64,000 nt of DNA, from contig CP054182.1 in assembly GCA_015709675.1 (NCBI GenBank), positions 4,009,448-4,073,447 of the forward strand. The letters are read 5' to 3'. This DNA is from Ignavibacteriales bacterium. Lineage in GTDB: Bacteria; Bacteroidota; Ignavibacteria; Ignavibacteriales; Ignavibacteriaceae. The position numbers and the translations under genes were made by a program. Under the pieces are notes generated by a model that saw nothing but the letters and a program-made list of their open reading frames with translations, was not told where the DNA came from and made no database searches. Shown here piece after piece: positions 28,633 through 31,628 of the stretch. Every line of letters starts with the position of its first letter. Within the stretch, counting starts at the first letter, position 1.

Positions 28633-29687
28633 ATCAGTTCTCCTGTTGGAATTTTAATTTCAGCTTTCACTTTATCCCCTTCCTGCGTCAGTTCAAATTC
28701 TGCCGTACCGGAATAGAGAAGATGCAGCCGCTGCTTGGTATTGGCAATACCAAATCCGCGCGAGGCCATCAGCTCCTCCGTACTCAGCGTTCCTGTGTTA
28801 TATATATCAATGGCCAGAAACGACGGTATCTTCATCGTCCGGATCATAATCTCCCCCCCTTCAGGCCTGCGGGCAATACCGTGTTTAATGGCGTTTTCGA
28901 CCAGAGTCTGCACCATCATCGGCGGTATTTCGATACTTCTGGTCAGGGGATCAATTTCAATCCTGTATTTCAGCCGTTCTTCGTAACGCACCAGTTCAAG
29001 CGCAAGATAATCCTCAACCGTTTTCATCTCATCCTCAAGGGGCACGGTCTCACTCCGCTCGATGCGCAGTGAGTAACGGAAGATATTGGAAAGCTGGGTG
29101 ATCGCTTTCTTGGCCCGCTCAGGATTTTCCTCTATCAGGGAGCGGATGCTGTTCATTGCGTTAAACATAAAATGAGGATTCAGCTGCGACTTCAGCGTCT
29201 TCAGTTCAAAATCCTTAACTGCCGCTTCCCACACCAGCCGTTCAATTTCTGAATTTTTATAGCTGATAAAATAATGAAAAGCAAAGTACGCAACCGACCA
29301 GAGGAGAATAATAATGCTGATATTAAAAAAGTTGCCCATCACCACGGTAAGATTCACCCGTTCAAGATCATAGATGCCCCCGAATTCAATCACCAGAAAG
29401 ATCAGTGCGGTAATGACAGCACCGGTCAGAAGAATTGACGGAAGCAGCCGGAGCAGCAGTGATTTCCAGGTGAGGTCTATCCAGCGGTATTTTTTTATAT
29501 AAAATCTAAGGATGTGTGTTGCGGCAAGTCCGGTAATTGACATATAGAGGAGGAGAATGAAATTCCTTCCCTTAAAACCCTCGTAACTTGCCGTCAGAAG
29601 AAAATTGATCAGAAAATAAAGACCCCAGCCGCCCGCCTGGCAGGCCCAGTATGCTTTATCCCGGTTATTGAGAAGATCAAATTTCAT
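28629..29687 (-). CDS. LytS/YpdA-type sensor histidine kinase
   Basis: 352 residues: four membrane helices in the first 140 residues with little periplasmic sequence, then a His_kinase domain with the phospho-acceptor His172 in LKSQLNPHFMFNAMNSI, and an HATPase domain with N-box MMVQTLVENAIKHGI and G-box SRGFGIANTKQRL. This architecture senses membrane or cell-surface states and pairs with LytTR regulators such as the next gene. No sensory domain beyond the helices is visible. Confidence 0.93.
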   Translation of the reverse strand: MKFDLLNNRDKAYWACQAGGWGLYFLINFLLTASYEGFKGRNFILLLYMSITGLAATHILRFYIKKYRWIDLTWKSLLLRLLPSILLTGAVITALIFLVIEFGGIYDLERVNLTVVMGNFFNISIIILLWSVAYFAFHYFISYKNSEIERLVWEAAVKDFELKTLKSQLNPHFMFNAMNSIRSLIEENPERAKKAITQLSNIFRYSLRIERSETVPLEDEMKTVEDYLALELVRYEERLKYRIEIDPLTRSIEIPPMMVQTLVENAIKHGIARRPEGGEIMIRTMKIPSFLAIDIYNTGTLSTEELMASRGFGIANTKQRLHLLYSGTAEFELTQEGDKVKAEIKIPTGELI

Positions 29688-29990: not shown

Positions 29991-30128
29991 TACACCCTTA
30001 AAGGTATAATTTACGACTAATTCATCTTTTTATACCTAATCAGGTATATTTTTATAAAACTTTGTTTTTTATACCCTATATGGTATATTTCACCATTAGT
30101 AATTTAGTTTTACACCCATTAAGGTATA
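29991..30128 (+). promoter_or_regulatory. Four HipB-type operators, 18 bp each, ~40 bp apart
   Basis: Four dyads with consensus TAYACC-N6-GGTATA: 29991-30008 (TACACC/GGTATA), 30031-30048 (TATACC/GGTATA), 30070-30087 (TATACC/GGTATA) and 30111-30128 (TACACC/GGTATA). Start-to-start spacings are 40, 39 and 41 bases. The last ends two bases before the hipB ATG and contains the only Shine-Dalgarno-like bases (AAGG). HipB proteins are known to bind TATCC-N8-GGATA-type dyads upstream of their own operon, so autoregulation is the natural reading. Confidence 0.82.
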
Positions 30129-30130
30129 AA

Positions 30131-30340
30131 ATGGAACTTCGTGAATTTGTTAAAGCCAGACGAAAAGCTGTAAAATTAACCCAGCCCGAACTTGCCTGGA
30201 AGGCGGGGGTCGGACTGAGGTTTTTGAGGGAGCTTGAGCAGGGAAAAGAAACCCTGCGGATGGATAAGGTAAATAAGGTCTTAGCCCTGTTCGGACATAA
30301 ACTCGGACCGGTTAAACATACCTTCACACTTAAGGACTGA
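30131..30340 (+). CDS. hipB: HipB-like antitoxin/transcriptional repressor
   Basis: 69 residues from the ATG at 30131, chosen because the longer frame from 30062 would run through two operators. A compact helix-turn-helix of the Xre/HipB type: VKARRKAVKLTQPELAWKAG then VGLRFLRELEQGKETLRMDKVNKVLALFG. It is expected to dimerise, bind the four upstream dyads and repress the operon, alone or with HipS/HipT. First gene of hipB-hipS-hipT. Confidence 0.9.
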   Translation: MELREFVKARRKAVKLTQPELAWKAGVGLRFLRELEQGKETLRMDKVNKVLALFGHKLGPVKHTFTLKD

Positions 30341-30348
30341 GAATTATT

Positions 30349-30681
30349 ATGCGCGGTGCAGTAGTTTATTACAATAACAGAAAAGCAGGAAGGATTTTTC
30401 AGGATGAAGAAGGATATCATTTTTATTACTTCCCGGAATATCTGACAGATAAAAATGCTGAACCAGTCAGTCTTACATTACATCTTCAGGAGGAAACTTT
30501 CCACAGCGACCGTCTCTTTCCGTTTTTTGACGGATTGATACCCGAGGGATGGCTTCTTGAAATCGCAGAAAAAAACTGGAAATTGAATCCAAGGGACAGA
30601 ATGGGGCTGCTGCTCGCCTGCTGCAAAGACTGCATCGGGGCAGTAAGTATCATACCTGAAGAGGAGGGGGCTTTATCATGA
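30349..30681 (+). CDS. hipS: HipS-like small subunit (HipA N-terminal subdomain)
   Basis: 110 residues equivalent to the N-terminal subdomain 1 of full-length HipA: AVVYYNNRKAGRIF, YHFYYFPEYL, PVSLTLHLQEETF and FFDGLIPEGW. In the E. coli HipBST system the separate HipS protein is the antitoxin that blocks the HipT kinase, with a Trp engaging the active site; Trp68 in GLIPEGW here may correspond. ATG 30349; its stop overlaps the hipT start (ATGA). The separation is not a frameshift, because both halves have intact ends and the start signals fit. Confidence 0.87.
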   Translation: MRGAVVYYNNRKAGRIFQDEEGYHFYYFPEYLTDKNAEPVSLTLHLQEETFHSDRLFPFFDGLIPEGWLLEIAEKNWKLNPRDRMGLLLACCKDCIGAVSIIPEEEGALS

Positions 30682-31628
30682 ACAGAATTTGTCTTGCCTG
30701 TTATCAGCCGGTACTTAACGGGGATAGCGAATTTCATGAGGAATGTTCAAAAAAACTCTTTCTGCAAAATGAAGCGCCCGTCCTTGCCTATACAGAAAAG
30801 GAACTTGCCGGACTGGGACTTCAGATAATTCGTTCCAGTATCTCAGTAACGGGAGTTCAGCCAAAGCTTTCGCTGGATATTGAAAAAGAAAGGGGAAATC
30901 AGGCATCAAAAAGATTCACCATTGCCGGGCTTTGGGGGCAGTATATACTTAAACCGCCCTCACTGCACTATCCGCAGCTCCCTGAGACAGAAGACCTGAC
31001 AATGCATCTGGCTGAGATCGCGGGAATACCTGTTGTACCGCATAGTCTCATCCGTCTTGCCTCAGGTTCGTTTGCATATATAACACGAAGAATAGACCGG
31101 ATTAAAGGGTCTAAGATTCACATGGAGGATATGTGCCAGATTACCGGAAAACTCACAGAAGAAAAATATCAGGGCAGTTATGAACAAGTGGCTAAAGCAA
31201 TTCTGCAGTACTCATCATTCCCTGTTCTTGATGCTATCGGTCTCTGTGAGGTTTTGCTTTTTTCTTTTGTAACCGGGAATGCTGACATGCATTTAAAGAA
31301 TTTTTCCATCATAAGAACCGGGCCGAAAGAGTACCGCCTTTCCCCTGCTTACGATCTGGTTTCAACAGCACTGGTAAATCCCGCAGACAAAGAAGAAATG
31401 GCGCTTACCCTAAACGGCAGGAAAAATAAAATAACGAGAGAAGATTTTATCCGGTTTTTTGAACGATTATCTATTGAACCTCAGCAGCAGGAACGGCTTT
31501 TCTCAAGAATTGAAAAATCAGCCGGTGATTGGTACCCCTTTATCCGGAAAAGTTTTCTCACCAGAGAATATCAGGAATCATTTATTACAATAATCAGAGA
31601 GCGGATGAGGCGGCTCAATGTATCATGA
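30678..31628 (+). CDS. hipT: HipT-like serine/threonine kinase toxin
   Basis: 316 residues, the HipA kinase fold without its N-terminal subdomain. The N-terminus has CxxC...HxxxC (Cys5, Cys8, His20, Cys23), a possible zinc knuckle. The Gly-rich loop holds Ser54-Ile55-Ser56 before VTGVQPKLSL, the SIS motif in which HipT autophosphorylates. Catalytic residues are Asp203, Lys207 and Asn208 (GNADMHLKNFS) and Mg-binding Asp226 (SPAYDLVS), all intact. In E. coli O127 the toxin phosphorylates tryptophanyl-tRNA synthetase; the target here is unknown. Confidence 0.9.
   Translation: MNRICLACYQPVLNGDSEFHEECSKKLFLQNEAPVLAYTEKELAGLGLQIIRSSISVTGVQPKLSLDIEKERGNQASKRFTIAGLWGQYILKPPSLHYPQLPETEDLTMHLAEIAGIPVVPHSLIRLASGSFAYITRRIDRIKGSKIHMEDMCQITGKLTEEKYQGSYEQVAKAILQYSSFPVLDAIGLCEVLLFSFVTGNADMHLKNFSIIRTGPKEYRLSPAYDLVSTALVNPADKEEMALTLNGRKNKITREDFIRFFERLSIEPQQQERLFSRIEKSAGDWYPFIRKSFLTREYQESFITIIRERMRRLNVS

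Follow-up and report, generated by a model that had tools for sequence, protein, structure and literature searches.

A conserved, evenly stepped array of predicted HipB operators at the promoters of hipBST modules in Bacteroidota and Chlorobi

Introduction

In hipBST modules, HipS neutralizes HipT, and HipT phosphorylates TrpS. Hip promoters with several operators are already known, namely the E. coli hipBA promoter with 4 operators and the Legionella hipBST promoter with 3 evenly spaced ones. The hipBA operon of E. coli K-12 is bicistronic, HipB itself is the antitoxin, and cooperative autorepression has been reported (PMC3376134). In this operon, four 18-bp operators of the type TATCC-N8-GGATA are located upstream of hipB, with steps of 28, 39, and 28 bp (that is to say, paired rather than even), and the ATG follows after a gap of 21 bp. 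In the hipBST system of E. coli O127, HipS is the antitoxin, HipT is the kinase, and the HipB2S2T2 hexamer is bridged by a HipB dimer with a helix-turn-helix (HTH) (PMC6581861, PMC10627512). In Legionella, purified HipB binds 3 evenly spaced operators, which was described as the first such case for hipBST; gel shifts revealed that HipB binds each operator and that HipT, or HipS plus HipT, shifts the complexes further (PMC10653801). In the open-licence papers that we searched, we found no account of the operators of Bacteroidota hipBST modules.

Results

The hipBST locus and its 4 dyads

The window (the whole 64,000-nucleotide stretch of Ignavibacteriales DNA analyzed) includes a tripartite hipBST operon, in which a small HTH protein HipB, a separate HipS that corresponds to the N-subdomain 1 of HipA, and a HipT kinase without this subdomain are encoded in this order (Table 1). 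The order is that of E. coli O127 hipBST. The hipS and hipT genes share a 4-nt overlap, and a divergent histidine kinase gene (start at 29687) lies on the far side of the intergenic region, approximately 300 bp from operator O1.

Table 1. Genes, operator dyads, and candidate promoter elements of the hipBST locus, in window positions.
Feature	Position	Strand	Description
hipB	30131..30340	+	69-aa HTH repressor; NCBIfam TIGR03070 above cut-off; Pfam HTH_3/HTH_31 just under cut-off
hipS	30349..30681	+	110 aa; Pfam Couple_hipA PF13657, E=1e-25
hipT	30678..31628	+	316-aa HipA_C kinase; Pfam HipA_C PF07804, E=3.5e-47
Operator O1 (predicted)	29991..30008	.	TACACC-CTTAAA-GGTATA; exact match
Operator O2 (predicted)	30031..30048	.	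TATACC-TAATCA-GGTATA; exact match, half-sites perfect
Operator O3 (predicted)	30070..30087	.	TATACC-CTATAT-GGTATA; exact match; between the candidate TTTG and TATATTTC promoter elements
Operator O4 (predicted)	30111..30128	.	TACACC-CATTAA-GGTATA; exact match; 2 nt to hipB ATG
Candidate -33 element TTTG (register B)	30061..30064	+	TTTG-N19-TATATTTC; register-B relatives have TTG at index -7
Candidate -7 element TATATTTC	30084..30091	+	differs from TANNTTTG at one position; would place the start near 30096
Alternative -7 element TAGTTTTA (register A)	30105..30112	+	overlaps first two bases of O4; position matches that of TANNTTTR in 48 of 72 abutting loci; G at third base disfavoured

Four dyads of the pattern TAYACC-N6-GGTATA precede hipB at steps of 40, 39, and 41 bp, which leave gaps of 21–23 bp; the original prediction had placed all 4 dyads, and the 2 bases between the last one and the ATG, exactly to the base. 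At least 2 of these near-identical dyads overlap predicted hipB promoter elements. A first-order Markov null model of the 443-bp intergenic region yielded 0.00015 expected exact matches, with a maximum of 1 in 20,000 draws. A scan of the whole 4.21-Mb genome recovered zero-mismatch dyads only at O1–O4. A wider HipB regulon in this genome was rejected, as the scan gave no further exact site and, among the listed sites with one mismatch, no pair near 40 bp. Computed at 10.5 bp per turn, the centers of O1–O4 lie at 0, 291, 189, and 154 degrees, which describes a slow helical winding at this pitch, and a different in-solution twist would alter the angles. The proposal that 4 dimers lie roughly on one face of the DNA holds loosely for neighbors only, with sites 3 and 4 positioned 154–189 degrees from site 1 at 10.5 bp per turn.

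Structural comparison with the described systems revealed that (i) the window resembles E. coli K-12 hipBA in having 4 operators, and the E. coli operator type was not found at the locus, where the motif is TAYACC-N6-GGTATA; (ii) by its published description, the Legionella locus is likewise tripartite, with evenly spaced 18-nt operators of six-base inverted repeats that are located upstream of hipB and overlap the promoter (PMC10653801); and (iii) the Legionella layout of 3 operators with 53-bp gaps (a period of approximately 71 bp) was not found in the window. In Legionella, moreover, the operator named O1 lies 24 nt before the start codon, 2 of the sites are asymmetric, and the motif is another one, whereas the clade of the window has a 40/41-bp period, 3 to 4 near-symmetric sites, and a last site usually 2–6 nt from the ATG.

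Two further observations concern the hip genes of this genome. Residues 1–24 of HipT (window 30678–30750) carry the pattern C-x2-C-x11-H-x2-C, in which C5, C8, H20, and C23 are invariant in 19 of 19 aligned HipT sequences of the clade; this segment, which lies outside the HipA_C match and matched no Pfam family significantly, could possibly be a zinc-binding mini-domain. A second hipBST-like locus (L145, 693700–696200, minus strand) has the dyad AAGTGC-N8-GCACTT at -83 and, with two mismatches, at -22 of its hipB, 61 bp apart. Its own, different dyad points to a separate operator specificity, and thus no shared control with the hipBST operon of the window was inferred.

Conservation of the array across related loci

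Searches with HipT in genomes that share the family, order, class, or phylum of the window, together with one scan of further genome contigs, yielded 138 loci, from which 116 distinct loci with a hipB of the clade of the window were analyzed. These belong mostly to Bacteroidota and Chlorobi, with a few differently labelled metagenome-assembled genomes, and their HipT proteins are mostly 45–60% identical to that of the window. The dyad TRYACC-N6-GGTRYA was present in 3 or 4 copies at 107 of the 116 loci (3 copies at 89, 4 at 18, 2 at 8, and 1 at a single locus). Dyads are not absent from relatives: 115 of the 116 loci have arrays of 2–4 of them, and counting them there was a check that the original prediction had called for. 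The layout of 4 sites, which had been regarded as richer than a simple two-site operator, is indeed present and is not special to this genome: 3 sites are the norm, and 4 occur at 18 of the 116 loci.

The step between dyads was 40 bp in 92 cases, 41 bp in 135, and another value in 13 (40 or 41 bp in 227 of 240), and the upstream pairs keep it as well (17 of 18 third steps). Pairwise distances between sites with at most one mismatch, which were taken free of any step rule, cluster at 40–41, 80–82, and 121–123 bp. The last dyad lies 2–6 nt from the ATG in 72 of the 116 loci and mostly farther in the rest. Control patterns, in which the dyad was reversed or the half-sites were shuffled, gave zero arrays at the related loci. 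By contrast with the dyads, the sequence between them is little conserved and not repeated, except for promoter elements and A+T richness in the logo. The array is, judged by this conservation, under selection and the norm for this hipBST clade rather than a peculiarity of the window, 4 sites being a minority state compared with 3.

At one locus (L092), whose record is titled Methanimicrococcus sp., an archaeon, HipT is 48% identical to that of the window and the dyads stand at irregular steps of 61, 61, and 31 bp; this locus represents either a transfer into an archaeon or contamination of the contig.

Covariation of HipB and the dyad

The HipB recognition helix, GVGLRFxRELEQGK, is almost invariant in the clade of the window, and the few natural exceptions coincide with changed dyads. 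At the 5 loci with HipB Q18R, base 1 of the half-site is A or G in 22 of 23 half-sites, whereas the half-sites of T17-Q18 proteins have T there in 495 of 533 cases. Residue Q18 presumably matches the helix-2 Gln of the 434 repressor, which helps read the outer base. At L019, where the recognition helix reads GISLRL instead of GVGLRF, the dyad is TATATC-N6-GATATA, with C5 changed to T in 5 of the 5 half-sites counted, and at L112 (HipB R30G), base 5 is T in 3 of 5 half-sites. Upstream of hipB at L091 (R30N in the recognition helix), no recognizable TATACC dyad was found, though the -7 box TATATTTG is present, and the 2 outgroup loci with an unrelated recognition helix (L033 and L034) had no such dyad upstream. 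Since Q18R has a single origin on the HipT tree, the covariation amounts to about 3 independent events, which constitutes good support, though not statistical proof. Because natural changes in the HTH go together with changes in the dyad, HipB very probably reads the dyad. The original assignment of the dyads as HipB-type operators thus gains support both from the recurrence of the array and from this covariation.

Two promoter registers

The Bacteroidota -7 consensus is TANNTTTG/TAHHTTTG, in which G is disfavoured at the third base (PMC6847099). One promoter register did not account for all loci; instead, 2 lineage-dependent registers were seen. In register A, 48 of the 72 loci with an abutting dyad have TANNTTTR at index -6 to +1 relative to the last dyad, and 11 of the 72 have it at the penultimate one. 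This register is typical of most Bacteroidota loci outside the class of the window (60 of 76). The last dyad here covers the -7 box and the predicted start site, which is the seventh base of the dyad and leaves a leader of approximately 16 nt. Where the last dyad is 7–35 nt from the ATG, the -7 box is still beside the dyad in 13 of 23 loci; the box moves with the dyad, and thus the dyad appears locked to the promoter and not to the ATG.

In register B, which holds for 33 of 40 loci (relatives in the class of the window and Chlorobi), TTG is located at index -7 of the promoter dyad. The dyad fills the -35/-10 spacer, and its final TA opens a -10/-7 element, TAnnTT, in which TT reaches 94%; at L026, for example, TTGACA-N17-TATAAT surrounds the dyad. 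The predicted leader has a median of 35 nt and often contains one further dyad. The 2 registers lie approximately 19 bp apart on the same array, and the register label requires 3 changes on the HipT tree.

The window itself is ambiguous, with candidate elements of register A at O4, use of which would place the start near 30117, and of register B around O3. Reading its start site from its class relatives was dropped because the HipT tree pairs the window with L006, its nearest relative, which has the other register (A). In either register, the operators cover the predicted core promoter.

Discussion

We propose, with a probability of about 0.85, that O1–O4 are operators of the dimer of the adjoining HipB, which, alone or within HipB2S2T2, would bind them cooperatively and repress the hipBST promoter. 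The basis in sequence comprises the sites, their restriction to the locus in the genome, their conservation, the fixed step, the overlap with promoter elements, and the covariation of HipB and site; from these we infer HipB binding, cooperativity, repression, and any change in affinity caused by HipS or HipT. The 2 downstream sites would cover the spacer, the -7 box, and the start region and thereby block RNA polymerase, and the 1 or 2 upstream sites, which keep to the 40/41-bp step, would add cooperativity and thus a steep response. When HipB drops, the array would empty and the operon would be made again. The cooperative, multi-site layout of the original prediction draws support from the fixed step, which includes the upstream sites beyond the core promoter and is suggestive of cooperative binding between sites. 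As the step is fixed outside the core promoter and kept under 2 registers, neighboring complexes may cooperate by contact or through the DNA; simple face-to-face contact is not assured, since 40/41 bp does not make up a whole number of helical turns at 10.5 bp per turn.

The same operators could instead act independently by steric block, with a step that reflects RNA polymerase geometry or descent and involves no cooperativity. The last 2 sites coincide with promoter elements in either register, and the intermediate complexes of Legionella HipB form a ladder; this intermediate occupancy, unlike the cooperativity of E. coli, counts against a cooperative reading here (PMC10653801). However, the O1–O2 and O2–O3 steps, which are outside the core promoter, stay at 40/41 bp in deeply diverged loci, and the same array serves 2 registers approximately 19 bp apart, so that the step cannot be dictated by the geometry of the polymerase alone. 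We consider independent block possible but unlikely.

That the last dyad works in the mRNA leader, where a hairpin or a bound protein stops ribosome loading, is very unlikely. The whole last dyad, up to its end 2 nt before the ATG in the window, would be transcribed in register B and, provided that the O3 promoter is active, in the window as well. Yet Bacteroidota do not use Shine-Dalgarno sequences (PMC6847099), the leader folds no better than its shuffles (z of 0.53 and -0.81), O4 has the same DNA motif as O1–O3, and the register-A start predicted for most other Bacteroidota loci would yield an RNA without half of the dyad. The AAGG within O4 is not an independent Shine-Dalgarno signal, because RGGT or GGT belongs to every operator copy, and the block of ribosome loading in the original prediction finds no support. 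Regulators can share one dyad, but a binding protein other than HipB is highly improbable here, considering that exact sites in the genome are confined to the hipBST locus, that the dyads travel with hipBST over a phylum, and that dyad changes track those of the HipB HTH. Even spacing might also come from chance or from a 40-bp unit that was recently duplicated in tandem; the chance expectation, inter-dyad sequence that is neither repeated nor conserved, and above all the conservation over 116 loci refute this and leave it a negligible probability.

The cooperative HipB array may be extended, in a speculation that we hold rather doubtful, to a scaffold on which neighboring HipB2S2T2 hexamers touch, so that DNA occupancy would count the dose of repressor and would also keep the HipT kinase inactive within a higher-order assembly; across the group, the array would stay unchanged, with the promoter sliding along it by about 2 turns from lineage to lineage.

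The motif, the 40/41-bp period and its breadth across the group, and the 2 promoter registers are new insofar as this could be checked. The array is very probably the self-control switch of the hipBST operon, conserved group-wide, and would give a simple, checkable code for the operators of more than 100 hipBST modules that are still uncharacterised. The HipB Q18R proteins and L019, with their dyads, are natural specificity-change pairs for recognition tests. The steps of E. coli and Legionella are different ones, which makes the group a clean system in which to ask why a toxin–antitoxin promoter holds a fixed 40/41-bp step.
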